Shown here in pieces: positions 10,525-25,908 of a stretch of DNA of 54,458 nt. Under the pieces are notes generated by a model. That model had not been told where the DNA came from. It did not search any database and saw nothing but the letters and a program-made list of their open reading frames with translations. A program made the translations under genes and the position numbers. Positions within the stretch are counted from its first letter, which is position 1; each line of letters starts with the position of its first letter. Origin of the DNA: Nitrosomonas sp. (GTDB lineage Bacteria > Pseudomonadota > Gammaproteobacteria > Burkholderiales > Nitrosomonadaceae); assembly GCF_019635155.1 (NCBI RefSeq), contig NZ_JAHBZY010000021.1, forward strand, positions 1-54,458. Direction: 5' to 3'.

Positions 10525-10588
10525 TCGTTTTACTATATTAGACAAAAAATGAATCACCCCGGATCTTCTGGAGATTGTTTGCATTGAA

Positions 10589-10732
10589 TCAAGTTGCATC
10601 AGCAGATTCTTTTAATTGGCGATAATATGCCATTTCAGATTCCGCTGGTGGAAGATTTTCAATCGATTACAACAATCGGTGATTATTAAACCAATCCACC
10701 TATTCCAGAGCGACAAGCTTCACTTCACGATC
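10589..10732 (-). pseudogene. Decayed 3' end of an IS3-family transposase
   Basis: Read on the minus strand, this stretch encodes the recognisable tail of an IS3-family OrfB/integrase-core transposase: REVKLVALE, then VDWFNNHRLL, then LPPAESEMAYYRQ, closed by a stop at 10589-10591. In-frame stops interrupt it (TAG after ALE, TAA after HRLL), and no upstream transposase domain remains. It is therefore a relic. It lies in the gap between yicC and the first cas gene, at the left edge of the CRISPR island. The rest of the gap (10525-10588 and 10733-10921) shows no gene; a TTGACA at 10868-10873 could be a -35 for the cas operon but has no convincing -10 partner. Confidence 0.75.
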
Positions 10733-10921
10733 AGGTTAAAGCTGTGGTACTTGCTATGGTGGCAATAACTCGGTCGACGCCCGCCTACCCTCAATTGCTG
10801 TCAATGGAATACTTGATGAAGGACAGTTCATAGGCTGGATTTTTAAATCAAACAGGCTGCTGGATATTTGACAAGCTTTTCAACCATGATCTGATCCGGT
10901 TTCTCTGCGTAAACTGGTGTC

Positions 10922-11206
10922 ATGATTCAACGGCAACTTTATCTGGTGGCTTACGATATATCCAGCAACCGGCGTTTGCGCAAAGCGCTGCATGTGCTGC
11001 GCGGTTATGCATCGGGTGGGCAGAAATCGGTATTCGAGTGTTATCTGACGCATGCCGAAAAATCCTGTTTGCTGAAGAGTATCAGCACGATCATCGATCC
11101 GAATGAGGATCGATTCATTGTGCTGAAGTTGAGCGGGGGAAGCCATATTCATACACTTGGCAAAGCAGTGCTTCCTCAGGATGGTTCTTTTTATTATGTC
11201 GGGTGA
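10922..11206 (+). CDS. cas2: CRISPR adaptation protein Cas2 (first copy)
   Basis: Small ferredoxin-fold protein of 94 residues that bridges Cas1 dimers during spacer integration. The first strand LVAYDIS with its conserved Asp and the helix after it (NRRLRKALHVLRGY) match Cas2, as do the KSVFECYLT strand and the total size. It opens the adaptation block and ends 3 bp before the Cas1 ATG. A second, differently sequenced Cas2 lies 1.7 kb downstream, closing the block. Which of the two partners the active Cas1 cannot be told from sequence; adjacency favours this one. Confidence 0.9.
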   Translation: MIQRQLYLVAYDISSNRRLRKALHVLRGYASGGQKSVFECYLTHAEKSCLLKSISTIIDPNEDRFIVLKLSGGSHIHTLGKAVLPQDGSFYYVG

Positions 11207-11209
11207 TTG

Positions 11210-12166
11210 ATGAACTGTTTGTATCTTGACCGGAAGAATCTGGAAATCAGATTGGATGGCCAGGCATTGGCTTTGTACGAAGAGGGTACAAGGAAAGGAT
11301 CAGTGCCGCTGCATTTGCTGGAACGCGTCGTCATGCGCGGTAATGTGCAACTGGAAAGCCGGGTGCTCGGTGCGTTATCGGCGCGGAATATCGGCTTGTT
11401 GGTGCTTTCCGGGCGCAGTAGCGAGGCGACGGCCATATTGGCGGGAAGACCCCATAACGAGAGTTCCCGTAGGCTGGGACAATATCGCGTGAGCCTGGAT
11501 GATGATTTGCGTGCTCCGCTGGCGCACTGGCTGGTGCTGGTAAAAGTGCGCGCGCAAAAGCGTCTGCTGCGTGAAGCTTTGCCGGTGCGTGCGGATTTGC
11601 GGCATGCGCTGACTATAGCAGTGCAGCGGCTGGACAACATCATGAATCAATTGCGAGCAGATTCCAGCATACCGTCACTATCAAGCCTGCGCGGTTTCGA
11701 AGGCGCTGCCGCATCCGCTTATTTCAGCGGTTTTACGCAATTATTTGCGCCATCTTTGGATTTTACAGGACGAAAAAAACGCCCCGCGCCCGATCCTGTA
11801 AATGCATGCTTGTCGCTGGGCTATACGCTTTTGCATCATGATGCCGTGTACGCCTGCCATATCGCCGGACTGGACACGATGCTGGGTTTTTATCATGACA
11901 TCAGTTTTGGACGGGAATCGCTGCCCTGCGATCTTATGGAGCCATTGCGTCCGCTGATCGACCAGTGGGTGTGGTGGTTGTTTCGTGATCGCATCCTGCG
12001 GATAGAGCATTTTAGCGATGACAACGGGCGTTGCTTGCTGAATAAAGCCGGGCGCAAGCATTTTTACGGCTTTTACGAAGCGAATAGTGGGCCTGCCAGA
12101 CGCTTGCTGCGGCGATACAGTCATGCGCTGGCCAAACGTTTCCAGTTAATACATGGCGGCGAATGA
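11210..12166 (+). CDS. cas1: CRISPR integrase Cas1 (catalytic copy)
   Basis: Metal-dependent integrase of 318 residues that inserts new spacers at the leader end of the array. The N-terminal beta-domain (CLYLDRKNLEI onward) and C-terminal helical domain are both present. The catalytic set is intact: Glu164 in LRGFEG, His229 in GFYH, and Asp241/Glu244 in CDLMEP. The ATG at 11210 is chosen over the TTG at 11207. Its stop overlaps the start of the second Cas1-like gene by 4 bp (ATGA), so the two are translationally coupled. Length and motifs are normal for Cas1 of type III-associated modules. Confidence 0.93.
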   Translation: MNCLYLDRKNLEIRLDGQALALYEEGTRKGSVPLHLLERVVMRGNVQLESRVLGALSARNIGLLVLSGRSSEATAILAGRPHNESSRRLGQYRVSLDDDLRAPLAHWLVLVKVRAQKRLLREALPVRADLRHALTIAVQRLDNIMNQLRADSSIPSLSSLRGFEGAAASAYFSGFTQLFAPSLDFTGRKKRPAPDPVNACLSLGYTLLHHDAVYACHIAGLDTMLGFYHDISFGRESLPCDLMEPLRPLIDQWVWWLFRDRILRIEHFSDDNGRCLLNKAGRKHFYGFYEANSGPARRLLRRYSHALAKRFQLIHGGE

Positions 12167-12912
12167 TGCGGCCGCTGTATATCGATGGCGCTCTCGGCTG
12201 CCGGGTAACATGGGATGATCCTGCCCTGCGGATAATTGTGCCGGATCGGGCGGATCAGTTGTTTCCACTGTCGCGGATTTCACGAGTAGTTTGCAAAGGC
12301 AGCGTGGAGTGGTCTATGCAAGCGTTACTGGCCTGTGCTGATGCGGGTATTCAATTGCTGTTTCTGGGGAAAGACGGTGAAATTCGCGCGCGCTGGCTGG
12401 GTCAAAGTGGCGAACGGCAGCGGCTGACTCAAAGATTGATCGATTTGTTGTCACGCACCGACGGGCCGGTGCTATATGCAAACTGGCTACTGTCAATGGA
12501 AAAACTGGCGGCGCGCAGTTGTGGGCGACGAATTGGCCTGTGCGATTGGCGCGAACGTCCTGCGTTGGAACTGCACCGACAGATCAGGCAAACACTGGGT
12601 CATCATGGCAGGCATCGCGCAGCATTAATCCAAAACATCCTCTATAGTGAGTTGCTGGTTTGGCTGCCGGAATGCGGTTTTGAACGGGACAATGAAATGT
12701 TGCTGTCGATGGAGCTTGATCTAGCGACTGATCTGAGCCGGTTGTTGCTTTGGGATTACTATATCGCGCTCCTGGAACCGGACGCGGCAGAACGCGGCGG
12801 AAATGCCTTGCAAGTCATGGCGGAATTGTTTCAGCAGCGTCAAGAACGCTGTTACAAGCTGTTTCGAAGCAGCATCAACAAACTACATCAATTTTTACTG
12901 GGAGTGAGCTGA
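12163..12912 (+). CDS. Cas1-like paralogue lacking the catalytic residues
   Basis: Protein of 249 residues that begins like Cas1: a LYIDGALGC strand, then VCKGSVEWSMQALLACADAG and IQLLFLGKDGEIRARWLG, matching the Cas1 beta-domain and its ALLA...GI..LFL turn. The C-terminal half remains helical but shows no GxEG glutamate motif, no GFxH histidine and no DLxE acid pair. It is also about 70 residues shorter than its neighbour. It therefore looks like a catalytically dead Cas1 that could act as a structural or target-selecting partner. It is coupled to both sides: ATGA overlap with cas1 and a TGATG junction with the second cas2. Tight packing and an intact frame argue against simple decay. The Cas1 relationship rests on my reading of the N-terminal pattern. 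Confidence 0.7.
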   Translation: MMRPLYIDGALGCRVTWDDPALRIIVPDRADQLFPLSRISRVVCKGSVEWSMQALLACADAGIQLLFLGKDGEIRARWLGQSGERQRLTQRLIDLLSRTDGPVLYANWLLSMEKLAARSCGRRIGLCDWRERPALELHRQIRQTLGHHGRHRAALIQNILYSELLVWLPECGFERDNEMLLSMELDLATDLSRLLLWDYYIALLEPDAAERGGNALQVMAELFQQRQERCYKLFRSSINKLHQFLLGVS

Positions 12913-13226
12913 TGGCAGACAGTCAGGGCAATTTATATCTGATGGCATACGATATTGCGGATCCCAAACGCCTTGCACGGATTCATCGTCTATTGAAGCA
13001 ACAAGGATTGCCCGTGCAATATTCGGTGTTCACAGTAGTTCTCAAGCGCAAGGCTTTGCTGCGTCTTCTGGAACGAATCAATGCACTGATCAATCAGCGC
13101 GAGGATGACGTGCGCTGTTACCGCCTGCCGGAAAATAGACCCGCCGAGATACTCGGTCAGCAATATTTTCCCGACGATGTCATGCTGTTTACCGGTGGAG
13201 TCAATCGCATGTTGACGCGGCATTGA
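12912..13226 (+). CDS. cas2: CRISPR adaptation protein Cas2 (second copy)
   Basis: Second Cas2-like protein, 104 residues. The first strand LMAYDIAD and following helix (PKRLARIHRLLKQQG), the QYSVFTVVL strand and the LPENRPAEILG region fit Cas2. It differs widely from the copy at 10922, so it is not a recent duplication. Its ATG overlaps the stop of the Cas1-like gene (TGATG), which pairs these two as the earlier cas2-cas1 are paired. After it, 111 bp without a gene precede cas6. It may dock with the inactive Cas1-like protein or broaden the specificity of the integrase complex; this is inference. Confidence 0.85.
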   Translation: MADSQGNLYLMAYDIADPKRLARIHRLLKQQGLPVQYSVFTVVLKRKALLRLLERINALINQREDDVRCYRLPENRPAEILGQQYFPDDVMLFTGGVNRMLTRH

Positions 13227-13337
13227 TATTCGCAGCGGCGGTTCTGTTTTGACAAACCCAGCGGTATTGAATATAAACAATCAAAGGTAGCGGCGCACGA
13301 TATCTACCGACTTTGATTGATACATGAAAAAAAGAAA

Positions 13338-14291
13338 ATGACAACAATCAATAACCCTTCCATTCCACTCAACAGCTATCGTTTTTACTTTGATACGGAT
13401 CATCCGCTACGCCTGCCGGATTATCCCGGTTCTGCCTGGCGCGGTGCATTTGGCCATGCCTTGAAAAAGACAGTCTGCGTCGTGCGCAATACGCCTTGTC
13501 AGCAGTGTTTGTTGAAACAGGCTTGCGCCTATAGTTATATTTTCGAGACGCCGCCGCCAGCCGATACCGAAAAAATGCGCAAATACACCGCCACGCCGCA
13601 TCCGTTTGTTCTTCGCTTTGCCGTAGCAAAATCCGCAACGCAGGAATTGAGTATTGATATGAACCTGTTTGGTCATGGCCAGCGTTTTTTTCCCTATATT
13701 ATTCACGCCATGCACATGGCGGGGCAGGATGGCGTCGGCGGAAACCGGCAGCCGTTCCGTTTGAACAGAGTCGACGCGATTGATTTTCAGGGTCAGCCTA
13801 TCACGGTATATCAGGAAGCGGAATTACGCAGCCAGCCGCCGCTGCAAAGCCCGCCGTTGCCTGAAATGCCGGAAAAAATCAATATTACTTTTCATTCGCC
13901 GGTGCGTATCAAGCAGGATAATAAAAATCTTGCCGCTGCTCATTTCAGCTTTGGCGCATTGTTTGGTTCCTTACTGCGGCGTATTTCAATGATCTGCTAC
14001 TTTCACACCGACACGCCATTGGAAACCGATTTTGTCGGACTAACCGCCGCTGCTCGAAACTTTCAATTCAGCGCGCAGAATCTTCATTGGTACGACTGGA
14101 CGCGCTATTCCTCCCGCCAGCAAACCGAAATGCAAATGGGCGGATTGCTGGGCACTGTCAGCCTGAACATGCAGGGCTTGGAAGATTTCTGGCCCTATCT
14201 CTGGCTCGGCCAGTGGACGCATGTCGGCAAGGGCACCAGCATGGGCATGGGCGCATACACGATCGAACCGGCAAGCTTGCCGGATGCTTAA
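13338..14291 (+). CDS. cas6: Cas6 pre-crRNA processing endoribonuclease
   Basis: RAMP-fold endoribonuclease of 317 residues that cuts the CRISPR transcript within repeats. The opening YRFYFDTDHPLRLPDYPGSAWRG... and a cysteine group (C..CQQCLLKQAC) match the Cas6 branch common in type III loci. Near the C-terminus the glycine-rich loop GKGTSMGMGAY is the RAMP signature that binds RNA. The ATG at 13338 gives a normal family start; an in-frame TTG at 13317 is less likely. The catalytic histidine cannot be assigned without alignment. It lies between the adaptation block and the effector genes, so it serves the single array at 24287. Confidence 0.85.
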   Translation: MTTINNPSIPLNSYRFYFDTDHPLRLPDYPGSAWRGAFGHALKKTVCVVRNTPCQQCLLKQACAYSYIFETPPPADTEKMRKYTATPHPFVLRFAVAKSATQELSIDMNLFGHGQRFFPYIIHAMHMAGQDGVGGNRQPFRLNRVDAIDFQGQPITVYQEAELRSQPPLQSPPLPEMPEKINITFHSPVRIKQDNKNLAAAHFSFGALFGSLLRRISMICYFHTDTPLETDFVGLTAAARNFQFSAQNLHWYDWTRYSSRQQTEMQMGGLLGTVSLNMQGLEDFWPYLWLGQWTHVGKGTSMGMGAYTIEPASLPDA

Positions 14292-14319
14292 TCCACAAGG
14301 CAACAGCTATACTGACGCA

Positions 14320-15417
14320 ATGAATGCGCAATCCATTTTATTGGCCGTTACCGGACTGACTCCGCAGATTGTCACCGAAACACTGTTCGCCCTGCATGAT
14401 CAGGGCGAACAACTGCCTTCAGCTGTTCATATCCTGACCACGGCGGAAGGCTGCCAGCGCGCCAGACTGACGCTGATCAACGATGGCTGGCTGGCGCGTT
14501 TCTGCCGCGATTATCATCTGAAGCAGCCGGATTTTACGGAAGCCAGTATTCATGTTCTGCGGCAAGCCAATGGCGAACCGTTGACCGACATTCGCACACA
14601 GGCTGACAATCAAGCCATGGCCGATGCCATTACCGAATGGATCAGGACTTTTACCGCCGACCCGTATACCGATTTACATGTATCGATTGCGGGTGGCCGA
14701 AAAACCATGGGTTTTTACGCGGGTTACGCCTTGTCACTGTACGGCCGCGCCAGAGACCGGCTCAGTCATGTACTGGTGTCGCCCGATTACGAATCGCACC
14801 CGCAGTTTTATTACCCGACGCCCTATTCGCACGTCATCTATGGCAACGACCCCAGCCGCAAGCCGCTGGACACGCAGAATGCAGAAGTCATGCTGGTCGA
14901 CATCGCCTTCGTGCGCCTGCGGCATGGGCTCGATCAGGCTTTGCTGGAAGGTAAAGCCAGTTTCAGCCAGTCGGTGGCAGCCGCGCAACAGGCGCTTGGG
15001 CCGGCGCATCTGACCATCAACTTAAAAAACCGTCAGTGCATCGCGCACGGTAAACCGGTCAGACTCAGTCCCGCTGATTTGGCGTTTTATCTCTGGTTGT
15101 TGCAGCGGCAAACCGATGGACAACCATCGCCGCATTGCCCCAGCGACGGCGCACCGGATGACACTTACGCCAGTCAGTTTTTACAGCACTACCGCCGGAT
15201 CAACGGCGAACTTGGCGGTGCCGACCGCACTATCGATACTTTGAAGGATGGCATGAGTAAAACCTTTTTCGAGCAGCGTAAATCAAGAATCAATAAAACG
15301 CTGACACAAACCCTGGCTTATGCGGCGCAACCGTATTTGATAACGCCGGAAGGGAAGCGGCCGAGGACGACATACCGAATCAATTTAAGTATTGAACAGA
15401 TACAGATTATTCATTAA
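14320..15417 (+). CDS. CARF protein of the NE0113 family (TIGR02584-like)
   Basis: Protein of 365 residues with a CARF-type Rossmann domain. The first strand and loop ILLAVTGLTPQIVTETLF and the later VSIAGGRKTMGFYAGYALS are the ligand-facing motifs of this family, expected to bind cyclic oligoadenylate. The C-terminal part (about residues 230-365) is a winged-helix-like region (LSPADLAFYLWLL ... FFEQRKSRINKTL) ending in a conserved RTTYRINL strand. I see neither a HEPN R-x4-6-H pair nor a PD-(D/E)xK triad. It may therefore regulate transcription or act through an unrecognised activity. An alternative ATG at 14284 would overlap cas6. It precedes the cas10 gene by 14 bp. Confidence 0.82.
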   Translation: MNAQSILLAVTGLTPQIVTETLFALHDQGEQLPSAVHILTTAEGCQRARLTLINDGWLARFCRDYHLKQPDFTEASIHVLRQANGEPLTDIRTQADNQAMADAITEWIRTFTADPYTDLHVSIAGGRKTMGFYAGYALSLYGRARDRLSHVLVSPDYESHPQFYYPTPYSHVIYGNDPSRKPLDTQNAEVMLVDIAFVRLRHGLDQALLEGKASFSQSVAAAQQALGPAHLTINLKNRQCIAHGKPVRLSPADLAFYLWLLQRQTDGQPSPHCPSDGAPDDTYASQFLQHYRRINGELGGADRTIDTLKDGMSKTFFEQRKSRINKTLTQTLAYAAQPYLITPEGKRPRTTYRINLSIEQIQIIH

Positions 15418-15431
15418 ACCGGAAATATGGC

Positions 15432-17993
15432 ATGAAAAAACACGATCACATTGTTTTAGGTTGCTTATTGCACGACATCGGTAAGTTTTTTGAACGTGCG
15501 GAAGTTTTGGATCAGTACCGTAAAAACGAAGAAAAACGCCAGGGCTATTGCCCAAAACACTCAGATGGTTATTACACGCATATTCATGTATTGAATACCT
15601 TGGCTTTTTGTGAGTTGCTTGCTGAGAAAGTGCCGCAAATTCAGCCCGAAGAGCATCAGACGACTGTAACTGCGGATCAAAACTGGATCAATCTGGCGGC
15701 CTACCATCATGCGCCATCCGAAAGACAGGAGGCTTATTTGGAAAAAGTTGTTCAGGCAGCCGATCATTTTGCAAGTGCGGAACGTGAGCAAGGCAGTTTT
15801 TATGAGCAAGGTATTCATAAAAAAACCCGGCTTGAATCTCTTCTTGGACGAATTCAGATTGGTGAAACCGCCAGGCAAAATGAACATTTTTTACCGCTTA
15901 ATTTTTTGGAATTATCGGGAGAACACGTTTTTCCTAGGCAGGCTGCCACTTTTGGCATGGAAAGGAAAAGTGTCGCATGGCTGAGCCAAAGTAGTTTGGT
16001 TTCAGACTACCAAGCAGTGGCAAACCGTTTTCTATCCGAACTGGAGGGGTTGCAACAATTTCAAGCCAATATAGCCAAGGAGAAAATCCTCAAATCCGTC
16101 TTTCGCAGCTTGCTAAGTATCATGGAACGCTATTTGAGCCAAATACCGGCGGCAACGAACATACAACACCCGGATATCTCTCTTTTCGACCATCTTCGGA
16201 TTACTGCGGCAATTGGCGAAGGCTTGTATCTGCATCATGAGGAAGCTGATCAGACCAGCGGATTCAGCGACCAAACAACGGTCAAATGGCAGTTAGTTTG
16301 CGGTGACTTCTCGGGCATTCAAAAATTTATTTACAAAATCACCAGTAAAGGTGCCGCCAAAGGCTTGCGAGGCCGTTCGTTTTTTATTCAATTGTTGTGC
16401 GACGCCGTTGCCGAGCGAATCATTCGCGATCTGGGACTTTACCCAACCGCGAGAATTTATTCCTCGGGTGGCAAATTTTACTTGCTGATCCCTGCGCACC
16501 TGAAAGATCAAGTCAAGCACATTGCCGACTCTGTCAATAAAGCTTTACTTGATGAATTTCAGGGTGAAGTGTTTTTAGGTGTGGGTTTTGCCGACATCTT
16601 TGGCGATGACTTCAGGGAAGGTAATATGGGCAAGCGCTGGCAGCAAGTGAACGAAGACTTGCAAAAGCAACGCTTACAACCCTTCAAAAGCCAGGTCAGC
16701 GGAGACATCGAATGTTTTTCCCAACAAACTCAACATGAACGCGGCGCGTGTAAGATTTGCGGACGTGATGATGCTCAGGCAGAAATCAACAATCAACAAA
16801 ACTGCAAGCAATGTCACAACTTGGAACGACTGGGGCAAGTATTGGCTGATGCACGTTATTTGTTTTGGGTATGGGGCGAAAATCGGAAAACGGTGAAAAA
16901 CAAAATCCAGGGTCACCCATTTTTTATGTCGTTGCCGGGCACCGATTGTGATCTATATTTTTTAAATGATGAACCACAGTTTAGCGAGCTGACCGACTTA
17001 TCTGAATCACACCTTGAAGCCCTCAATGAATGGATTCCGTTAAGACCTAACCTACAAGGTTATTCGCAAGGCATTCGCTATGTCGGCAAGTGGCAGGATT
17101 ATAAAGACAACGGAAGTCGCGATTTCAAGGACTTTGCAGATAATGCACTGGGTATCAGCCGCATGGGCGTGTTGAGGATGGACGTGGATAATCTGGGTGA
17201 AATATTCATTCGCGGCTTGAATTTCGGTAAAAAAGACGGCGATGGAAAACAAGCCAGTATGGGTTCGTTATCTCGTGTCGCGACGGTATCCAGACAATTA
17301 CACTTGTTCTTTGCCGGCTATTTACACCGGATTCTCGACGATTACCCGCAATGCCAGATTATTTACGCCGGTGGGGATGACGTATTCATCATTGGCAGTT
17401 GGAACGAGTTACCGGATGTTGCGCAAAAAATCCGCAGCGAGTTCAGCCGCTATTGCGGCACTAATCCATGCTTTACCTTGTCCGGCGGCATTGCAATGGT
17501 CGGGGGCAGATACCCCATTTCACGCGCCGCAGAATTGGCCGGGCAAGCGGAAGAGCAAGCAAAACATTTACAACGCGGTCAAAAACAAAAAGAAAAAGAT
17601 GCGTTGAGCTTTCTGGAAACCGCCATTGGCTGGGAAAGCTTTGACGAAGCGGTTCGATTGCGCGATATTTTGTTGAATATTATCAAAGAGACTGAGAGTC
17701 AAGCTATCATCGACCGTTTGCGGCAAGTCGTGATTGCCGTCGACGAAATCAAAGCGAGGGAAAAATCGGGTCAGTTTCAAGAAATGATTTATTGGGACAA
17801 ATGGCGCTGGCGACTGGTTTACAACCTCAAACGAATGCAAAAACGTTACCCGGAAGTTGAGTCCCAACTCGAAAATTTACAGCAACAACTAATCACCCCG
17901 CAAACACCTTCAAACAAGCAGCCTGTGATGGAATGGCTGCAATTGCCGGTGCGTTGGGCGGAATTTTTAACGAGGAGCAAAGCAAATGACTGA
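15432..17993 (+). CDS. csm1: Cas10/Csm1, large subunit of the type III-A complex
   Basis: Large subunit of 853 residues. An N-terminal HD nuclease motif (LLHDIGK, His14-Asp15) predicts single-stranded DNA cleavage. The first palm domain begins near GDFSGIQKFIY. A zinc-binding CxxC pair (Cys440, Cys443, Cys458, Cys461) separates it from the second palm, which carries the cyclase motif GGDD at 647-650. Both activities therefore look intact, so cyclic oligoadenylate synthesis is expected on target RNA binding. The gene overlaps csm2 by 8 bp. Csm rather than Cmr identity follows from the neighbouring csm2 and csm5. Confidence 0.93.
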   Translation: MKKHDHIVLGCLLHDIGKFFERAEVLDQYRKNEEKRQGYCPKHSDGYYTHIHVLNTLAFCELLAEKVPQIQPEEHQTTVTADQNWINLAAYHHAPSERQEAYLEKVVQAADHFASAEREQGSFYEQGIHKKTRLESLLGRIQIGETARQNEHFLPLNFLELSGEHVFPRQAATFGMERKSVAWLSQSSLVSDYQAVANRFLSELEGLQQFQANIAKEKILKSVFRSLLSIMERYLSQIPAATNIQHPDISLFDHLRITAAIGEGLYLHHEEADQTSGFSDQTTVKWQLVCGDFSGIQKFIYKITSKGAAKGLRGRSFFIQLLCDAVAERIIRDLGLYPTARIYSSGGKFYLLIPAHLKDQVKHIADSVNKALLDEFQGEVFLGVGFADIFGDDFREGNMGKRWQQVNEDLQKQRLQPFKSQVSGDIECFSQQTQHERGACKICGRDDAQAEINNQQNCKQCHNLERLGQVLADARYLFWVWGENRKTVKNKIQGHPFFMSLPGTDCDLYFLNDEPQFSELTDLSESHLEALNEWIPLRPNLQGYSQGIRYVGKWQDYKDNGSRDFKDFADNALGISRMGVLRMDVDNLGEIFIRGLNFGKKDGDGKQASMGSLSRVATVSRQLHLFFAGYLHRILDDYPQCQIIYAGGDDVFIIGSWNELPDVAQKIRSEFSRYCGTNPCFTLSGGIAMVGGRYPISRAAELAGQAEEQAKHLQRGQKQKEKDALSFLETAIGWESFDEAVRLRDILLNIIKETESQAIIDRLRQVVIAVDEIKAREKSGQFQEMIYWDKWRWRLVYNLKRMQKRYPEVESQLENLQQQLITPQTPSNKQPVMEWLQLPVRWAEFLTRSKAND

Positions 17994-18366
17994 AAATATC
18001 GAATCCTTTATAAGAAGAGATGATGCCGCGAGGGAAATGGTGAAATTCGCTGAAATCTTAGCTAAGAAGATTGTTGGTGATGTGACAACATCCCAAATCC
18101 GTAATGCCTATGGAACAGTTAAAAAATTGGAAATGCAAAATACTTTTACTGATAAGTCATATCGTGAGCTTTTGCTTTTAAAACCGAAACTCGCTTATGC
18201 CAGAGGTCGAGCTGAATCTAGAAAAAGAGATACTTTCAAACAATTGGAAGATGCTTTGGGTGCTGGAATTGATGCAGTTGATGTAAAGCAACCCGAGACC
18301 TTCAAACGATTTTGCAATTTCTTCGAAGCTATTCTGGCTTACCACAAAGCTAACGGCGGCAAATAA
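17986..18366 (+). CDS. csm2: Csm2, small subunit of the type III-A complex
   Basis: Helical protein of 126 residues. Small size, high charge and the segments TTSQIRNAYGTVKKLE and KLAYARGRAESR match Csm2, which lines the crRNA-target duplex beside the Csm3 filament. It overlaps csm1 by 8 bp and is followed 12 bp later by csm3, with an AAAGGA ribosome site in between. This subunit is the clearest marker that the locus is III-A and not III-B. Confidence 0.88.
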   Translation: MTENIESFIRRDDAAREMVKFAEILAKKIVGDVTTSQIRNAYGTVKKLEMQNTFTDKSYRELLLLKPKLAYARGRAESRKRDTFKQLEDALGAGIDAVDVKQPETFKRFCNFFEAILAYHKANGGK

Positions 18367-18378
18367 AAGGACACGAAC

Positions 18379-19173
18379 ATGAGCGAACAAACCAGCCCAA
18401 AACTGAAAAGCAAAATTTTCATCAAAGGCAAGATTACCGCATTAACCGGTTTGCATATCGGTGGCAATTCCATAGGCATGGCCATTGGTGGCGCGGATAA
18501 AGTCGTAGTCAGAAATCCATTGACCAATGAGCCCTATATTCCCGGTTCTTCATTGCGCGGAAAGATGCGTTCATTGCTGGAACGCGCGCGCGGCGACGAA
18601 AAGCATAACCCCGAGGAAGGCGGATTCAGCTTGAAAGAAGGTAAATTGGAAGCCCAAGCCGGCATCAACCCCGAAACCCTGCTCGGCAAACTCTTCGGTG
18701 TTTCTGCCGACAAAAATAACGGCCAGCCGACCCGCTTGATGGTGCGCGATGCGCATTTAACCCCAGCCAGTAAAGAACAACTGGAAAATGCGCCCAATAC
18801 CGACATGCCGATGACCGAGGTCAAAACCGAAGTCAATATCGACCGTATCACCTCGGCGGCCAATCCACGCCAATTCGAACGCGTGCCTGCCGGAGCGGAG
18901 TTTAACTTTGAACTGGTTTTAACCCTTCTGGAAGGCGATGGCGAAAAGCAGTTTTTAAACCTGATCCGGGAAGGCCTGGAACTGGTGCAGCACGACAGCC
19001 TTGGAGGCCACGGTTCACGGGGTTACGGCGCAGTTGAATTCCGCATCGAAAGCTTGCAAGAGCGCACCATGCAGCACTATCAACAAGGTCAGGCGGCAAG
19101 CGATGTTAGCGACCAACTGGTTATACTATTCGCCAATTTACCATCAAATGCCGCCGCTGTCGCCGGAGCGTAA
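18379..19173 (+). CDS. csm3: Csm3, backbone RNase subunit
   Basis: RAMP protein of 264 residues forming the backbone of the Csm complex and cutting target RNA every six nucleotides. The family start KIFIKGKITALTGLHIGG is followed by GGADKVVVRNP, in which Asp40 occupies the position of the catalytic aspartate. PYIPGSSLRGKMRSLLE and HDSLGGHGSRGYGAVEF are the RAMP glycine-rich motifs. A good ribosome site (AAAGGA) precedes the ATG at 18379. Target RNA cleavage is predicted to be intact. The csm4 ATG follows 1 bp after the stop. Confidence 0.93.
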   Translation: MSEQTSPKLKSKIFIKGKITALTGLHIGGNSIGMAIGGADKVVVRNPLTNEPYIPGSSLRGKMRSLLERARGDEKHNPEEGGFSLKEGKLEAQAGINPETLLGKLFGVSADKNNGQPTRLMVRDAHLTPASKEQLENAPNTDMPMTEVKTEVNIDRITSAANPRQFERVPAGAEFNFELVLTLLEGDGEKQFLNLIREGLELVQHDSLGGHGSRGYGAVEFRIESLQERTMQHYQQGQAASDVSDQLVILFANLPSNAAAVAGA

Positions 19174-19174
19174 T

Positions 19175-20146
19175 ATGGATTGCTATCGGCTTAAGTTTAC
19201 CGCACCGTTTCACGTCGATAGTCGCGGGAATGCTTTTTACGAGGAAAGCGGCAGTTTCATTCATTCGGATACCCTAAGCTCTGCGATTTTAGCGACATGG
19301 GCGTTGATTTGGCCGGAACAAATGAGCCAGCAAGCGCAAACACCCTCATTTCGTCTCAGTTCGGCGTTTCCGTTTTATCGGGATTGTTCTGATCGGTATT
19401 ATTACTTTTTACCTCGACCTTTTAGGGAGTCGGTTTCTCCTCCGGATGGGTGGGATATGAAAAATAATAAGAAAATAAAAAAAATCCAATGGTTGGATGT
19501 TGATCAATGGAGAGCCTTTTGGACTGACAATAATTGGGAATATCGCATCAACCTGAAAGAAGATATTCAACAAGGTATTTTTGCCTGCCGGAATAAATAT
19601 CTACCAGAAAAACTCTGGCTGGAAGAAGAGCGTCCGCGTCTGGCGATTGACCGGAATGACAACCAGGCCGCCGAAAGCCAAATATTTAATTTCAGTCGAA
19701 TCTGGTTAGACCCAAACGGTGGTTTATACTTTTTGGCGGTATTCGACGATGAGGCGAGTCGGCAACAATTTGAAACCGCGCTAAGAGTATTGGGCGATAG
19801 CGGCATCGGCGCGGATCGCACCAGCGGCAATGGCTGCTTTACCCCGAGCAAAGGACAGATACCGGAATTGCAACTAGCCGAACATGGCCAAGCCGTAGCG
19901 TTATCGTTGGTCAATCCAGCCCCCAGCGATTGCCAGACTGGCTGGCTCGAAGGCTCTGCTTATAAGCTGGTATCGCGCGGCGGCTGGATCGGCGGCAGCG
20001 GCATACGCAAGCAGCGTGTGCGCATGTTTGCCGAAGGTAGCGTGTTTAACCAGCCATTGACGGGGCGGATGATCGATGTTTCGGTCGATCATCTGCCGCA
20101 TAAAGTCTTTCGCGACGGACGCGGTTTTTTTGTCAAAGCGGGATGA
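19175..20146 (+). CDS. csm4: Csm4, crRNA 5'-handle-binding subunit
   Basis: RAMP protein of 323 residues that holds the repeat-derived 5' tag of the crRNA and contacts Cas10. The start YRLKFTAPFHVDSRG with SFIHSDTLSSAIL, and the later GIGADRTSGNGCF loop, are characteristic of Csm4. The ATG at 19175 lies directly after the csm3 stop; the open frame extends farther upstream inside csm3 but without family resemblance. The C-terminal FVKAG ends 7 bp before csm5. Confidence rests on motifs and operon position. Confidence 0.9.
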   Translation: MDCYRLKFTAPFHVDSRGNAFYEESGSFIHSDTLSSAILATWALIWPEQMSQQAQTPSFRLSSAFPFYRDCSDRYYYFLPRPFRESVSPPDGWDMKNNKKIKKIQWLDVDQWRAFWTDNNWEYRINLKEDIQQGIFACRNKYLPEKLWLEEERPRLAIDRNDNQAAESQIFNFSRIWLDPNGGLYFLAVFDDEASRQQFETALRVLGDSGIGADRTSGNGCFTPSKGQIPELQLAEHGQAVALSLVNPAPSDCQTGWLEGSAYKLVSRGGWIGGSGIRKQRVRMFAEGSVFNQPLTGRMIDVSVDHLPHKVFRDGRGFFVKAG

Positions 20147-20153
20147 GGTGAAC

Positions 20154-21560
20154 ATGAAAGGTATCAACCACACGGTCAAATTGGGACTTGAAATCATCAC
20201 GCCGACGCAGTCCGGCTCCGGCACTGAATTGTTTAAAGAACTTGATTACATCGAACGTAACCAAATGGCTTTTATCGTTGATCAACAGGCCAGTTTTCAG
20301 GCGATAGCCTCCGGCAATCTGGCATTGGACGCACAGTTGTTGGCAGGTAATCGTTTGAGCGATTGGGTCAATGCGGCAGGACAGGATTTTGGTTATCGTC
20401 TGCCTTGGCTCGGCAGTACCGCAAAAGTGCCGGAGAAATTCCGTGAGCAACTCAAGGATGCCATGAACCGGCCGTACCTGCCTGGGTCAGCGATTAAGGG
20501 CGCGATTCGGACTGCTTTGATTGCTGACTGGTTGAGGTCGGCGAATAAAGCGAATATCGATTTGAGTCGGCAATTTCCGAAGAGAGATAAAAACGGAAGA
20601 GCACCAAATCCCAAATCGGCAGCAAAATATTTGCTCGAAGGACTTACAGGCAAAGACGCCAAACAAGACATCTTCCGTTCCTTTAAAGTCAAAGACACAT
20701 TGTTCGCTAATTCAGAATTGCGCTTGACTGATATTCGCTGGTTGAACGAAACGCGTTGGCGCAGTATGAGTCAGCGCAAAAGCTTCGAAGGTTGGCAGCA
20801 AGCCGACGGCATTTATGCCGAAGTATTGCAACCGGAGGCATTGGGTATGTTGATCTTGCAGTGGGACGGCTTTTTGCTGAGCGATATCAGCACATGGCAA
20901 CAAAACGGAACGGTTTCTGCAATCGCACCAAAGGATTTTGGCGATTTGAGGCAACGCCTCAATCGACACGCCGAGTACCGTTTACAGCGGGAAATCCAGT
21001 TTTACAAAGAACAAGGTAAGCCTGCACCAGAACAGGAATGTCAGCGTATTTTGAACATGATGAAAGCGGATCAGCAATCGGCTTACCTGCAAATATCCTG
21101 GGGTAGCGGTTGGCGCGGCATGACCGGCGATTGGGCGTCCGATGAACAAGTAAAAACCTTCAGAGAGCTATTCAATCTTGGCCGTACTGGCAAGCCTTTC
21201 CCCAAGACCCGCCGCTTGGTGGTTTCCGGTGAACCGAAACTGCCGATGGGCTGGGTAAGATTCTTGCCATACGAACTGGTCGCAGAAAAGTTGGAAACAC
21301 AGCAAACCCGGCAACAAGCCAATAACGCACAGTCTGCCTGGGTGAATCAAAAACTCGCGCAAATCGCCCAACAAAATCGCAGCCCGGAAAAAGAGGCGTT
21401 GCGCGGCAAAACGCTCGCGGAAGCCTGGCAAGCCCTGCCGGAGGGGGAAGAAAGACAGGTTGCATTGGCGGATATAAAAGCACGCTGGCAAGCGGAAGGT
21501 TGGTGGGAGCAGCCTGGTGGTAAATCGGCTAAGCAAGCTAAAGCTATTTATGAGGAGTAG
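20154..21560 (+). CDS. csm5: Csm5, crRNA 3'-end subunit
   Basis: RAMP protein of 468 residues capping the far end of the Csm filament and helping trim crRNA 3' ends. KLGLEIITPTQSGSGTE forms the first strand. PYLPGSAIKGAIRTALIADW is the hallmark Csm5 loop, and GWRGMTGDW with KTRRLV marks the second RAMP half. The C-terminal part (about residues 390-468) is charged and helical. The ATG at 20154 follows a GAGGTG ribosome site. It closes the core effector set; accessory genes follow. Confidence 0.9.
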   Translation: MKGINHTVKLGLEIITPTQSGSGTELFKELDYIERNQMAFIVDQQASFQAIASGNLALDAQLLAGNRLSDWVNAAGQDFGYRLPWLGSTAKVPEKFREQLKDAMNRPYLPGSAIKGAIRTALIADWLRSANKANIDLSRQFPKRDKNGRAPNPKSAAKYLLEGLTGKDAKQDIFRSFKVKDTLFANSELRLTDIRWLNETRWRSMSQRKSFEGWQQADGIYAEVLQPEALGMLILQWDGFLLSDISTWQQNGTVSAIAPKDFGDLRQRLNRHAEYRLQREIQFYKEQGKPAPEQECQRILNMMKADQQSAYLQISWGSGWRGMTGDWASDEQVKTFRELFNLGRTGKPFPKTRRLVVSGEPKLPMGWVRFLPYELVAEKLETQQTRQQANNAQSAWVNQKLAQIAQQNRSPEKEALRGKTLAEAWQALPEGEERQVALADIKARWQAEGWWEQPGGKSAKQAKAIYEE

Positions 21561-21579
21561 TAACAGCGGGGATTTGGCA

Positions 21580-21777
21580 ATGACTATTCAAAATATCCAG
21601 TATCCAAATATCCGTTCAAAAGACATGCACGAATCAACCGACGCCAACGGTTGGCCAACCGGTTTTCTTGAAGAAACCTATGGTTGTTTGCAGAGAGTGC
21701 TGCCAGATCGAGAACCGCAAGGCGAATATGAACAGCGGCTGGAATTGAACGACAATCAATCAGAAAGCATGGACTGA
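21580..21777 (+). CDS. Small acidic protein of unknown function between csm5 and csm6
   Basis: Open frame of 65 codons between csm5 and the Csm6-like gene, with 19 and 6 bp to its neighbours. A purine-rich AGCGGGGA lies ahead of the ATG. The protein is acidic and aromatic-containing: GWPTGFLEETYGCLQ is followed by LPDREPQGEYEQRLEL. That WPxGF...G...PxGEYExR pattern resembles, from memory, C-terminal tails of small antitoxin-like proteins, but no DNA-binding domain precedes it here. It could be an antitoxin remnant, or an accessory that tempers the neighbouring ribonuclease. It is transcribed with the csm genes. Function unassigned. Confidence 0.55.
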   Translation: MTIQNIQYPNIRSKDMHESTDANGWPTGFLEETYGCLQRVLPDREPQGEYEQRLELNDNQSESMD

Positions 21778-21783
21778 AACATT

Positions 21784-23049
21784 ATGCCCCAAATCCTCAT
21801 CTGTACCGTCGGCGGAAGTCATCAGCCTATCGTTAGCGCGATCAACGATCTGCGACCGGATTTCGTGGTGTTTATCTGTACCGACAAAGACCAGGCGACC
21901 AATCAGCCCGGTTCCCGCGTACAAATCGAAGGTAAGGGTAACTGCATTAAAGCGCACAACGGCGATGCCAATCCCACTTTGCCCAACATTCCAACCCAAA
22001 TCGGCCTTGCGTCAGAACAGTACGAAACGGTGCTGACCCTTTCCGACAATCTTGACCGCATTTATGTGGATTGTATTACCGCGATTGATGCCATCAGCCG
22101 CCGCTTTCCGGATGCCCGGATAGTAGCCGATTATACCGGCGGCACCAAGTCGATGAGCGCGGGGCTGGTGATGGCTGTAATGGAAAGTCCCGGCATTGAC
22201 TTGCAGCTTGTTACCGGCAGCCGCGCTGATTTGATCAAGGTGCAGGATGGTTCACAGTTTTCCGGCAAAGCGGATTGCGAACAGGTGCGTTACCGGCGGT
22301 TAACCGAACCTTACCGGCGGGCATGGCAGCGCTATGCCTACAGCGAAGCGGTGGCGGGGCTGGCCGGACTCAAGCCGCCCGGCGGCTTGCGGGATGAATA
22401 CACGCGCTTTCGTGAATTGAGCCGCGCCTTCGCCGAATGGGATAATTTCAATCATGCGCAGGCATTATCAATCCTGAAAACTTATGCGCCCAGCCTGCCG
22501 GATCATTTGAAGAAATATCTCAGCACCGCAAACCAACTGAATGACAACAATCAAGATAAATGCGATGCCGCCCGGTTGCTCGACCTCTATCGCAACGCCG
22601 AGCGCCGTGCTGCCCAGGGTCGCTATGACGATGCTGTAGCCCGCATTTACCGGCTTATCGAATGGAGCGCGCAATGGTTATTGAAAGTACAGGCCGGTAT
22701 CGAGACCGGCGATGTCAGGCCGGAGCAAATTCCCGATCATCTAACCCTGACACAAAACCGTAAAGGCCAGTGGCAAGCGGGGCTGTTCAACGCCTGGCAA
22801 TTGGTCAAGCATCACACAAAAGGGCCTGCGGCGGCTTTTATCACTGAGCAGGAAAACACCCTGCGCAGCCACATCGAAGCGCGCAATGCCTCGATACTAG
22901 CGCATGGTTTTAAGCCCATCCAAAATAGCCAATGGCAACCCATTTATGCATGGTTTGAAAGTCAATTCATTCCAATGCTCCTGGAAGAAACCGCAAAGTC
23001 CGGCATCAAAACCTTGCCGGCACAGCTCCCGGATGATTATCCCGGTTAA
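21784..23049 (+). CDS. csm6: Csm6-like CARF-HEPN protein (TIGR02710-like)
   Basis: Protein of 421 residues. The N-terminal CARF domain is marked by ILICTVGGSHQPIV, a strand-loop that contacts the cyclic oligoadenylate, and by ADYTGGTKSMSAGLVMA. A helical region leads to a C-terminal HEPN-like segment with ARNASILAHG, in which Arg367 and His374 fit the R-x4-6-H catalytic motif of HEPN RNases. Predicted role: collateral RNA cleavage when Cas10 makes the second messenger. The preceding small gene ends 6 bp upstream. It differs from the other two CARF proteins in both halves, so they are not tandem duplicates. Confidence 0.83.
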   Translation: MPQILICTVGGSHQPIVSAINDLRPDFVVFICTDKDQATNQPGSRVQIEGKGNCIKAHNGDANPTLPNIPTQIGLASEQYETVLTLSDNLDRIYVDCITAIDAISRRFPDARIVADYTGGTKSMSAGLVMAVMESPGIDLQLVTGSRADLIKVQDGSQFSGKADCEQVRYRRLTEPYRRAWQRYAYSEAVAGLAGLKPPGGLRDEYTRFRELSRAFAEWDNFNHAQALSILKTYAPSLPDHLKKYLSTANQLNDNNQDKCDAARLLDLYRNAERRAAQGRYDDAVARIYRLIEWSAQWLLKVQAGIETGDVRPEQIPDHLTLTQNRKGQWQAGLFNAWQLVKHHTKGPAAAFITEQENTLRSHIEARNASILAHGFKPIQNSQWQPIYAWFESQFIPMLLEETAKSGIKTLPAQLPDDYPG

Positions 23050-23079
23050 ACCGGCAACCTGTGGAGTACCGCAAATCTG

Positions 23080-24213
23080 ATGAAACTCAATACCCACCTC
23101 ATCCTCGTCTCCGCCCAGCCCATTCCCAACATCACCCCCATGCTGGACGATGCTGTCAAGCCGAAGAAAGTCATCATGCTGGTCAGTCCGGATATGCAGG
23201 AACGGGCGCGGGCGCTGGAGAATATTTTCAAGCCGCGCGGCATCGGTGTTGAATCCCGCGCCATCGCGGACCCGTGGGATGCGGAGCAAGTCAGCGATAC
23301 AGTGCTCGACATTCTCTGTCATTATCCGGATGGCGATATTGCGCTCAACGCCACCGGCGGCACCAAGCTGATGAGCATTGCCGCGTGCGAAGCGTTTCGC
23401 TCGGCGAATGCGCCGGTTTATTATGTGCACCCCCGGCATGACCGGCTGTTGTGGCTGTCGCCGAAACTGCCGCCGCACGAGCTGGCCGATCGTTTGAGAC
23501 TGAAGGATTATCTGATGGCCTATGGTGCTGATCAGGTCGATATTCCTGCAGAAACGCAAAGCGTGCCGCCAGCGATTCAGGAACTGACACGCCAATTACT
23601 GGCCGGTATCGACCGTTACGCGGATGAACTCGGCGCGCTGAATTATCTGGCGTATCAGGCGAATAATCCGCGATTGAGCGCCAGAATCGATCACACCCGT
23701 CAGGCCCGGCCGGTGTTATGGGAATTGCTTGAATTATTCGAGAACGCCGGTATCTGCCGCCTCGAACACCGGCTGATCAGTTTCCCCGATGAGCCGGCGC
23801 GATTCATCGCAAATGGCGGCTGGCTGGAAATGCACGCGTATGCCGCCTGTTTTCAGTTGAAACAAAAATGCGGCATCCAGGATGTGGCGTGCAACATTAC
23901 CATTCAGCGTCATCCGGCGGGCAAAACCGCGGTAAAAAATGAAATCGATGTCGGCCTGATTCATGCCAACCACCTGCATCTGATCGAATGTAAAACGAAA
24001 CACTTTGAAAAGGATGCGGATATGCTGTATAAACTCGACAGCCTGCGCGACCTGATGGGCGGCCTGCAAGGCCGCGCGATGCTGGTCAGTTTCAATAACC
24101 TCGATAAAACCAGCCGCGCCCGCGCCAGGGAGCTCAATATTGCGTTATGCTGCCATTCCGATTTGAAACATTTGCAGCAGCATCTGGCCAATTGGCTTAT
24201 CGCGTCAAGCTAA
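23080..24213 (+). CDS. card1: Card1/Can2-like CARF protein with PD-(D/E)xK nuclease domain
   Basis: Protein of 377 residues with an N-terminal CARF domain (HLILVSAQPIPNITPML and ALNATGGTKLMSIAAC motifs), a winged-helix-like linker region, and a C-terminal restriction-enzyme fold. The triad is clear: Asp290 in NEIDVG, then Glu303 and Lys305 in LIECKTK. Spacing fits Card1/Can2 enzymes (DUF1887 family), which cut single-stranded DNA and/or RNA when bound to cyclic tetra-adenylate. The last gene before the array, 73 bp upstream of the first repeat. Which nucleic acid it cuts cannot be told from sequence. Confidence 0.85.
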   Translation: MKLNTHLILVSAQPIPNITPMLDDAVKPKKVIMLVSPDMQERARALENIFKPRGIGVESRAIADPWDAEQVSDTVLDILCHYPDGDIALNATGGTKLMSIAACEAFRSANAPVYYVHPRHDRLLWLSPKLPPHELADRLRLKDYLMAYGADQVDIPAETQSVPPAIQELTRQLLAGIDRYADELGALNYLAYQANNPRLSARIDHTRQARPVLWELLELFENAGICRLEHRLISFPDEPARFIANGGWLEMHAYAACFQLKQKCGIQDVACNITIQRHPAGKTAVKNEIDVGLIHANHLHLIECKTKHFEKDADMLYKLDSLRDLMGGLQGRAMLVSFNNLDKTSRARARELNIALCCHSDLKHLQQHLANWLIASS

Positions 24214-24286
24214 CTTTCAAGAAATGAAATTTTCTGTCAATCCCATTTTTAAGCCTATGAAGATAAATGAGAAAACAGAACGAGCA
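24214..24286 (+). promoter_or_regulatory. Putative CRISPR leader
   Basis: This 73-bp AT-rich gap separates the card1-like gene from the first repeat. The repeats decay at the other end of the array, so the leader and newest spacers should be on this side, and the array is read in the same direction as the cas genes. No clear -35/-10 pair is seen; the array may be transcribed from within or before the last gene. Assignment is by position. Confidence 0.5.
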
Positions 24287-24605
24287 GTTTGAACTAAAGA
24301 CCTGATTAATAAGGGATTAAGACCTTTCACGTCAAGCGGATATGTAACGTTGCTCTGTTTGAACTAAAGACCTGATTAATAAGGGATTAAGACTATATCC
24401 TTACGACATACTCTTCGTTGTTCCAGGTTTGAACTAAAGACCCGATTAATAAGGGATTAAGACACAGGCAAAGTAAGCGCCTTAGCGATTTCTTCTTGGG
24501 TTTGAACTAAAGACCTGATTAATAAGGGGTTAAGATAAGTATCGTCAAGGCAATTGCCAATTATTTCCCGCTTGAATTAAAAACCTGCTCAAAAGGAATT
24601 AGCAT
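24287..24605 (+). CRISPR. CRISPR array: four repeats plus a degenerate terminal repeat, four spacers
   Basis: 37-bp direct repeats start at 24287, 24357, 24427 and 24500 (GTTTGAACTAAAGACC... ending ATTAAGAC). Spacers are 24324-24356 (33 bp), 24394-24426 (33), 24464-24499 (36) and 24537-24569 (33). Repeat 3 has one change; repeat 4 has two (GGGGTT, final GAT). A strongly diverged copy at 24570-24605 ends the array. Each repeat holds a small inverted repeat TTAAT-AAGGG-ATTAA, a possible 5-bp hairpin, and the last 8 bases would form the crRNA 5' tag typical of type III. It lies directly behind the III-A genes and is the only array in the window. Confidence 0.95.
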
Positions 24606-25395
24606 TCCGGCTGAAGGATGTCCGGTTCACATGGATATTGATGATCAAACTTCAAGTTATAAGTTTATAAACAGGATTGACTGTCAGTGCTGTGCAAGTA
24701 GATGTCAGTTCCTGGAAAATACGTCAGCAAACTGTTCGCGAGTTTGATTTGACGTTGCAACGCTATGTTCGTGATGTCAGTTGTTTATTAATAATGCGAC
24801 CGACCACTACTCGATGGAGTTCCTGTAAGATGATTTTGTAGAAACGCTCGCAAATTCGTTGGTTTGTGTAATGATTGGCTCGTTTTGGAATGCGCATTGT
24901 CATCGAACGTCAAATAGGGCTGGTAATCGTAACTTTCCGGCTTGTTGCAATATTCACAGTATCGCGGTTGATGGGATTCGGATGATATTTATACTTTTTG
25001 ATTGATTCGGTTTTGCAATATCGCAACCCTCAGATGCTTGTTCCAATCGAATTAATAATGTGAATTAACATTTCCAGAATACCACTGACATTCAATCTCA
25101 TTCTAATTAAATAAAATTCTCAATAGATAAGCTATCAGAGAGTTTTAGGTTTGTAGGATATATCCTAAGTAATTACATTACTTATTCCTTCTTTATAAGA
25201 AGAATAAGCCGACATAATATATTGCCTAATATTCCGTAATAGTTGTTTCATTCTTACATGTGATTTTCAATAATAAGACTGTAAAAAGTAAGAAAATCTC
25301 AGTAATCCAGTAATCAATCGCCTCGTGCAACGATTCCAATCGGAGTTAAAATTTTTTTTTATGATGCCTTTATGATTAGAAAAGGAGTGTAATCC
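24606..25395. other. Gene-poor region between CRISPR array and cheW
   Basis: About 790 bp with no convincing complete gene. Two short open stretches look like possible coding relics. One on the plus strand (about 24673-24840) reads RQQTVREFDLTLQRYVRDVS in part. One on the minus strand (24788-24988) reads RYCEYCNKPESYDYQPYLTF in part, with a CxxC. Neither has a good start or ribosome site and I do not recognise a family. The rest (25000-25380) is AT-rich and should hold the cheW promoter; AAAAGGAG at about 25380 is the cheW ribosome site. Confidence 0.4.
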
Positions 25396-25908
25396 ATGTC
25401 GTTAGAACAGATGACTTCGGTAGTAGTCGGTTCGGGTCATTCAAAAATTGGTGGGATTTCAGATGAATTCCTTACTTTTCGTTTAGGGAAAGAGGAGTAT
25501 GGGATAGAGATTCTGAAGGTTCAGGAGATTCGTGGTTATGAGGCCATCACGCAAATAGCCAATGCTCCGGACTTTATAAAAGGCGTAGTGAATTTGCGCG
25601 GGATCATAGTGCCGATCATTGACATGCGGATCAAGTTTCACATGGAGAATGTTGACTATGATCAATTTACCGTGGTGATTATTTTAAATGTTGCGGGCAG
25701 GGTGATGGGTATCGTCGTGGATGGAGTATCGGACGTGATCAATCTGACGTCCGAACAACTGAGACCGGCGCCTGGACTGGGATCGGTCATAGATACGGAA
25801 TACATCATGGGACTGGGAACCATAGATAATCGCATGCTGATATTAATTGACATTGAAAAGATGATGAGCAGCAGTGATATGGGATTGATCGAGCAGAACC
25901 TGAATTAA
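25396..25908 (+). CDS. cheW: Chemotaxis coupling protein CheW
   Basis: Adaptor of 170 residues linking chemoreceptors to the CheA kinase. [24 protein letters not shown] opens the SH3-like CheW fold; [21 protein letters not shown] is its most conserved strand pair. The ATG at 25396 has a strong AAAAGGAG site. A chemoreceptor gene follows after 40 bp, so the pair is probably one operon. No cheA, cheR or cheB lies in the window, so they must be encoded elsewhere. Confidence 0.93.

Follow-up and report, generated by a model that had tools for sequence, protein, structure and literature searches.

The window, a 54,458-nucleotide (nt) stretch of a Nitrosomonas sp. contig (NZ_JAHBZY010000021.1), carries a type III-A CRISPR operon in which three CARF-domain proteins accompany Cas10. 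We focus here on one of these proteins, NE0113, and on a palindrome that is its candidate operator. The genes run from 10922 to 24213 in the order cas2-cas1-cas1'-cas2-cas6-NE0113-cas10-csm2-csm3-csm4-csm5-(CARF-HEPN)-(CARF-PDDExK) and are followed by the CRISPR array (Table 1). Cas10/Csm1 scored 644.4 bits against TIGR02578 (cut-off 170) and carries an HDIG motif (15471-15482) and an intact GGDD cyclase motif (17370-17381). Together with Csm2 (76.1 bits, cut-off 30.6), Csm4 (207.8, 55), Csm5 (67.1, 38.3) and Csm3, the last recognised through similarity alone, it makes up the Csm1 plus Csm2-Csm5 set of type III-A systems. An original prediction, made by reading the letters of the window, had placed three CARF genes and a GGDD-bearing Cas10 in one such operon, and family scores and motifs confirm this.

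Two of the CARF proteins are, judging from their family scores and motifs, ordinary nucleases triggered by cyclic oligoadenylate (cOA). The CARF-HEPN protein scored 198.9 bits against TIGR02710 (cut-off 83.9) and 92.6 against PF09670 (27), and its R-x6-H motif, R367/H374 (RNASILAH, 22882-22905), is invariant in 15 aligned sequences including that of the window. The CARF-PD-(D/E)xK protein matched PF09002 (Card1 endonuclease; 120.8 bits, cut-off 26.4) and PF23400 (CARF_Card1; 59.9, 24.6), with D290, E303 and K305 invariant in 8 aligned sequences, again including the window; all five residues had been named correctly beforehand. As TGGTK is conserved in both of these alignments and the GGRK pocket motif of NE0113 is invariant in 20 aligned sequences, the CARF motifs are kept in all three proteins, and a loss of ligand residues from two of the three pockets, which the prediction had named as evidence against itself, was therefore not seen.

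The same prediction had one signal driving three unrelated outputs, perhaps with different ring sizes or thresholds. "Unrelated" was too strong, as all three proteins belong to the CARF superfamily, although their PADLOC clades differ (CARF5, CARF1 and CARF4). Three clades would suit three independent effectors, as would the presence among Csm6-fold proteins of members that bind cyclic tetra-adenylate (cA4) and members that bind cyclic hexa-adenylate (cA6). For the CARF-HEPN protein, a single-sequence search against the PDB gave no match; a profile found Thermus Csm6 (cA4) at 15% identity in that alignment, a hint at cA4 rather than an assignment of ring size. Thermus Csm6 was also nearest in a ranking of folds, with cA6-binding Csm6 proteins close behind. 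The Card1-like protein gave a long match to solved structures. The top match, VC1899, lacks TGGTK, unlike the window nuclease and Can2; the nearest relatives, Card1/Can2, share TGGTK and the PD-(D/E)xK residues with the window protein and are cA4-linked. The nearest relatives thus point to cA4 for two of the three proteins and lend no support to different ring sizes or to rare mixed-ring signalling. One source calls mixed-messenger loci very rare and states that no cA6-activated Csm6 has been found next to a cA4 effector (PMC11229360). With the C-terminal domain of NE0113 modelled as DNA-binding-like and not enzymatic, three effectors answering to separate rings or thresholds are very unlikely. 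What stands of the one-signal idea is an RNase, a nuclease and a DNA-binding-like protein with intact motifs; the notion of three parallel outputs with different ring sizes is not supported.

NE0113 (365 amino acids from the ATG at 14320, in an open reading frame (ORF) open from 14221) scored 165.6 bits against PF09623 (cut-off 23) and 215.6 against TIGR02584 (80.65), which places it in its family, and is 94% identical to NE0113 of a Nitrosomonas metagenome-assembled genome (locus L032). In the fold model, residues 1 to about 228 form the CARF domain and residues 229-358 an OmpR/PhoB-like winged helix. This combination would put the protein in the Csa3-like class of CARF domains fused to a DNA-binding winged helix-turn-helix (CARF-wHTH), with DNA and cOA binding both predicted. 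The closest solved CARF is that of Cad1, solved with cA4 and with cA6. A Cad1-like protein shares locus L112 with NE0113, but the effector domain of Cad1 is a deaminase, not a winged helix. NE0113 has no OmpR/PhoB receiver domain, its N-terminus being the CARF; a Pfam scan to E 1 returned PF09623, one unrelated weak match and no DNA-binding domain model, and a single-sequence search against the PDB found no relevant match. The winged helix may work like that of OmpR/PhoB, though Pfam does not class it there. A role in transcription was predicted for the NE0113/PF09623/TIGR02584 family in 2014, in an account whose available part gives no operator, promoter layout or OmpR-like fold (PMC4012209), and a search of open-licence papers, as far as their accessible text goes, found no published operator or OmpR-like fold for NE0113.

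The NCBI family name would instead make NE0113 a ring nuclease that clears cOA, its winged helix being merely structural. Against the Csx14 model of stand-alone ring nucleases it scored 35.0 bits, far under the cut-off of 90.35, and it is longer than the limit of 250 amino acids applied to such nucleases in one study (PMC12409355). As such a role would also leave the palindrome and promoter before NE0113 unexplained, we regard it as unlikely; ring cleavage and DNA binding could coexist in one protein.

The palindrome occurs twice in the window, at P1 before the first cas2 and at P2 before NE0113, in both cases outside the span (14320-24213) of the original prediction. It was first spotted by reading the DNA upstream of cas6 in related loci and written TTGNCAAGCTTGNCAA, then reduced to the core GRCAAGCTTGYC and finally to YGRCAAGCTTGYCR, choices that were made after seeing the data. 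With two mismatches allowed, TTGNCAAGCTTGNCAA was too loose genome-wide (40 matches, compared with 20 for a reversed control). In the window and 80 NE0113 loci (1.18 Mb), the exact core was found at 71 sites spread over 50 of the 81 loci, and five shuffles gave none. Having been taken as the 80 best of 560 relatives, the NE0113 loci are biased towards sequences close to the window's. A further 29 loci gave 9 exact sites in 7 loci, again with none in five shuffles. Some of these sites are not independent, those exact in L011, L014 and L002 appearing again in L052, L108 and L111; exact cases among the 29 loci with no noticed shared site are L003, L007, L009 and L025.

For 97 of 110 NE0113 loci, the core was sought within 420 nt upstream of a GLSPQ motif that served as anchor at the NE0113 start. 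It was exact in 41 and had one mismatch in 27 more (68/97), compared with 20 exact and 65 one-mismatch cases (85/2284) in control segments of the same loci under the same scan, from which everything between 2200 nt upstream and 200 nt downstream of the anchor had been excluded. At one mismatch the enrichment has a p of 7e-65, a value that ignores shared ancestry. Once near-identical sequences had been removed, 59 sites showed 14 informative columns, YGRCAAGCTTGYCR, between flanks with little information, and as these columns stand in such low-information surroundings, common ancestry alone is insufficient to account for the palindrome. Sites at the place matching P1 were present before cas2 in L032, L033 and L053. 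In L053, NE0113 is split across two frames (10001-11076) with both candidate promoters kept, which is either a gene broken in nature or a fault of the assembly. Exact palindromes were also seen within genes about 1 kb past the end of a type III-B-like cas10 (L072:16273, L100:16442, L102:6446, L103:16361, L120:14563 and L122:5983); they are either intragenic promoters or a coincidence at the protein level.

Sites were then scored for a TATAAT-like -10 hexamer with at least 4 of 6 matches, using the 32 of 40 cas6/cas2-upstream sites left after dropping duplicates and short ones, and 59 of 69 NE0113-upstream sites. Upstream of cas6/cas2, the -10 peaked 26 nt after the right half-site (17/32), with a lesser peak at 17 nt (10/32). 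Tested upstream of NE0113, the 26-nt spacing accounted for 34 of 59 sites, with 9 at 27 nt and between 0 and 5 at every one of the remaining 30 spacers (8-39 nt). These counts replaced a first reading of the promoter in which the half-site served as a -35 with the -10 at 17 nt. As the palindrome is symmetric, its non-gene side serves as a control: a -10 at 25-27 nt lay on the gene side of 56 of the 71 exact sites and on the opposite side of 7. By position, these 71 sites comprise 38 NE0113 promoters, 9 cas6, 6 cas2 and 18 elsewhere, the last group including NE0113 promoters (L053, L105) that the motif search missed. A search for a -35 gave nothing above background (2.48 versus 2.36 matches of 6), and just 3 of 46 sites have an extended -10. 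Such a layout, with the operator centre near -45 and the -35 missing, would suit an activator. In the window, the -10s of P1 and P2 both end 6 nt ahead of an ATG, which suggests leaderless messages.

These promoters could also be read with NE0113 as a repressor that leaves the palindrome upon binding cOA, so that infection derepresses the operon. Keeping a toxic operon repressed at rest is plausible, and in some cas6 promoters the right half-site TTGYCA could be a -35 for the -10 at 17 nt. However, the 26-nt spacing dominates both sets of sites, so the half-site is not the -35 of the dominant -10, and no other -35 rises above background. Repression seems doubtful to us, and activation by NE0113 the more fitting sign of control.

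Across 369 genomes of the class, 31 of them with NE0113, the exact 14-mer was present in 23 of the 31 compared with 131 of the 338 others (p 1.4e-4), the latter count indicating that single chance sites are common. The position of a site is a stronger test than its presence: of the 52 sites in NE0113 genomes, 22 lie at most 20 kb from NE0113 (at most 0.8 expected) and 13 at most 2 kb (at most 0.08 expected), with 36 of 39 PF09623 places used and three weak partial matches dropped. This test is not fully independent, as the flanking letters of the 14-mer had been picked using L002-L031, loci of the very NE0113 genomes tested. Genome G249 has three sites, all of them in its type III locus: one precedes NE0113, one precedes cas2 and one lies within the Cad1 gene.

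Several counts weigh against a strict link between palindrome and NE0113. The exact site is absent from 8 of the 31 NE0113 genomes. Of the 35 genomes in which Cas10 is clear (58 bits or more, a limit that we set), ten have no PF09623 match; six of them lack the exact site, two (G076, G313) have it solely on contigs with no Cas10 match, and two (G009, G273) carry it in type III loci. One G273 site is promoter-like and adjoins an APE2256 CARF protein, so the palindrome may also serve other CARF regulators. The G009 and G273 sites would equally fit a different, host-encoded regulator that happens to control such operons. Yet sites precede NE0113 in Pseudomonadota, Acidobacteria and once in Bacillota, they also occur in loci with no cas6 match (L073, L075, L103-L106), and the window's own genome holds a single additional exact site, which falls in an ORF read as RodA-like and has no -10 at 26 nt; a host regulator is thus quite improbable.

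As a matching palindrome and promoter signal stand before its own gene and before the operon in many bacteria, NE0113 is probably a gene switch. On sequence and fold model the role of operon regulator suits it better than that of a third weapon, since it is a frequent type III partner while the adjoining effectors change. The "transcriptional response" that the original prediction had offered with a "perhaps" is now its best-supported part, with an OmpR-like winged helix and a candidate operator and promoter before NE0113 and the operon. We consider it likely that NE0113 is a cOA-sensing regulator that binds YGRCAAGCTTGYCR at P1 and P2, with activation the most likely outcome.

In the mechanism that we propose, Cas10 would make cOA, probably cA4, upon foreign RNA. 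The messenger would open two weapons, the CARF-HEPN RNase and the Can2/Card1-like nuclease, and would also be read by NE0113, altering its DNA binding. NE0113 would dimerise via its Cad1-like CARF, so placing two OmpR/PhoB-like winged helices on the two-fold palindrome, centred about 45 bp upstream of the presumed transcription start, beside the -10 and with no recognisable -35. P1 would drive cas2-cas1-cas1'-cas2-cas6, and P2 would drive NE0113, cas10-csm2-5 and both nucleases, so that NE0113 would govern its own expression as well as the adaptation genes and the weapons, activation being the most likely sign. That this amounts to a cOA-gated positive feedback loop, raising adaptation genes, interference complex and effectors only in infected cells of Pseudomonadota and Acidobacteria, is a possibility that we put forward tentatively.

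The co-occurrence of the three CARF proteins, proposed as a check, gave a mixed answer. Among the 80 NE0113 loci, 20 have a CARF-HEPN relative, 13 a Card1 relative and 6 both, lower bounds owing to contig ends. The trio is co-located in 4 of the 369 genomes, the window's own included, and recurs in 9 distinct loci (the window, L032, L045, L046, L070, L085, L097, G136 and G249 (L112)). Over all 369 genomes, NE0113 is present in 17 of 27 Card1 genomes (p 2e-14). Among the 35 clear-Cas10 genomes, however, no association is significant (NE0113-Card1 p=0.07, NE0113-HEPN p=0.59, Card1-HEPN p=0.45), which counts against a trio beyond chance given type III carriage. We rejected the trio as an obligate set: NE0113 is frequent (25 of these 35 genomes), and effectors vary between its loci, as do Cas10 lineages (25-31% identity to the window Cas10 wherever tblastn gave a hit, three loci excepted). 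In many loci NE0113 directly follows cas6 and stands before cas10 or one gene ahead of it (exceptions L051, L076 and L094). A window-like cas2-cas1-cas1'-cas2-cas6-NE0113 block is joined to a distant Cas10 (27% identity) in L043, L046 and L053, and NE0113 thus appears to move together with the genes for processing and adaptation. L112 (2453-17261) encodes four CARF proteins: NE0113, a CARF-HEPN protein, a Cad1-like deaminase and a Card1-like nuclease.

Table 1. Features of the type III-A locus in the window
Feature	Position	Strand	Basis or remark
Candidate operator P1, TTGACAAGCTTTTCAA	10868..10883	none	One mismatch to palindrome; ahead of first operon gene
Candidate -10 of P1, TAAACT	10910..10915	+	27 nt past right half-site; 6 nt before cas2 ATG
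cas2, first copy	10922..11206	+	PF09827, TIGR01573
cas1	11207..12166	+	PF01867, 233.9 bits
cas1', second diverged cas1	12163..12912	+	PF01867, N-terminal part only; PDLC01185 "diverged variant, second in the loci"
cas2, second copy	12912..13226	+	PF09827
cas6	13338..14291	+	PF10040
Candidate operator P2, CGGCAAGCTTGCCG	14269..14282	none	Exact; within 3' end of cas6
Candidate -10 of P2, TATACT	14308..14313	+	25 nt past right half-site; 6 nt before NE0113 ATG
NE0113, CARF + OmpR/PhoB-like winged helix; proposed cOA-sensing regulator	14320..15417	+	PF09623, TIGR02584, fold model
cas10/csm1 with HD and GGDD	15432..17993	+	TIGR02578
csm2	17986..18366	+	PF03750, TIGR01870
csm3	18379..19173	+	Only similarity to Csm3 of other loci; L112 relative is TIGR02582
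csm4	19175..20146	+	TIGR01903, 207.8 bits
csm5	20154..21560	+	TIGR01899, 67.1 bits
CARF-HEPN ribonuclease, TIGR02710/Csm6 type	21784..23049	+	TIGR02710, PF09670, profile and fold
CARF-PD-(D/E)xK nuclease, Can2/Card1 type	23080..24213	+	PF09002, PF23400
CRISPR array, 4 repeats of 37 nt	24287..24536	+	Last repeat with two changes

The cas2-cas1-cas1'-cas2 cassette is present in several loci. In cas1' the N-terminal domain is retained, and the motif regions of Cas1 that we take to hold its Glu, His and Asp are absent in 7 of 7 aligned copies; from its sequence, cas1' is perhaps a non-catalytic partner in integration. With up to 3 mismatches allowed, the 37-nt repeat has no copies elsewhere in the assembly (3.09 Mb), and with just four repeats, the last decaying, the system would have three spacers. 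A small ORF (21580-21777; WPxGFxEET...REPQGEYEQRLEL) separates csm5 from the CARF-HEPN gene; it has relatives at E<1e-5 in 8 of the 80 loci, two of them with stops, and Pfam and NCBIfam scans gave no match. An Rfam scan of 10400-25500 found no family at gathering scores.

Among known systems, Csa3 is a protein that binds both cA4 and the DNA of cas promoters, and palindromes are its expected sites (PMC8844856, PMC8699464, PMC7480081); a 2022 source has it as the only experimentally characterised non-nuclease CARF effector (PMC9704534). Like NE0113, known here from sequence and model, Csa3 fuses a CARF to a winged helix. It is archaeal and type I-linked, whereas NE0113 stands in bacterial type III operons and has an OmpR/PhoB-type helix and a candidate site linked with a bacterial -10. 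In Methanosarcina mazei, MM_0565 is likewise a CARF-wHTH beside a CRISPR locus, and its dimer binds CRISPR leader DNA; unlike NE0113 it is archaeal and type I-B, and its description reports no direct effect on cas transcription (PMC7465815). Another bacterial route from cOA to transcription is CalpL with its sigma factor (PMC11229360). This route relies on a protease and a sigma factor instead of a CARF-wHTH protein.

To our knowledge, little is understood of what switches on bacterial type III operons, which can carry effectors harmful to the host. Regulation by NE0113 itself was already predicted in 2014 (PMC4012209); the candidate operator, its -10 spacing and the genes behind it make that prediction directly testable. 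The most interesting part of the locus is probably, on sequence and model, a cOA-sensing switch with a recognisable candidate operator and not three weapons. NE0113 is common, both in the class and where Cas10 is clear, so the result would matter well outside this locus. Such a switch would tie cOA signalling to cas1/cas2 expression and hence to memory; under the tentative feedback loop, memory formation, guide processing and weapon supply would be raised together via one palindrome.
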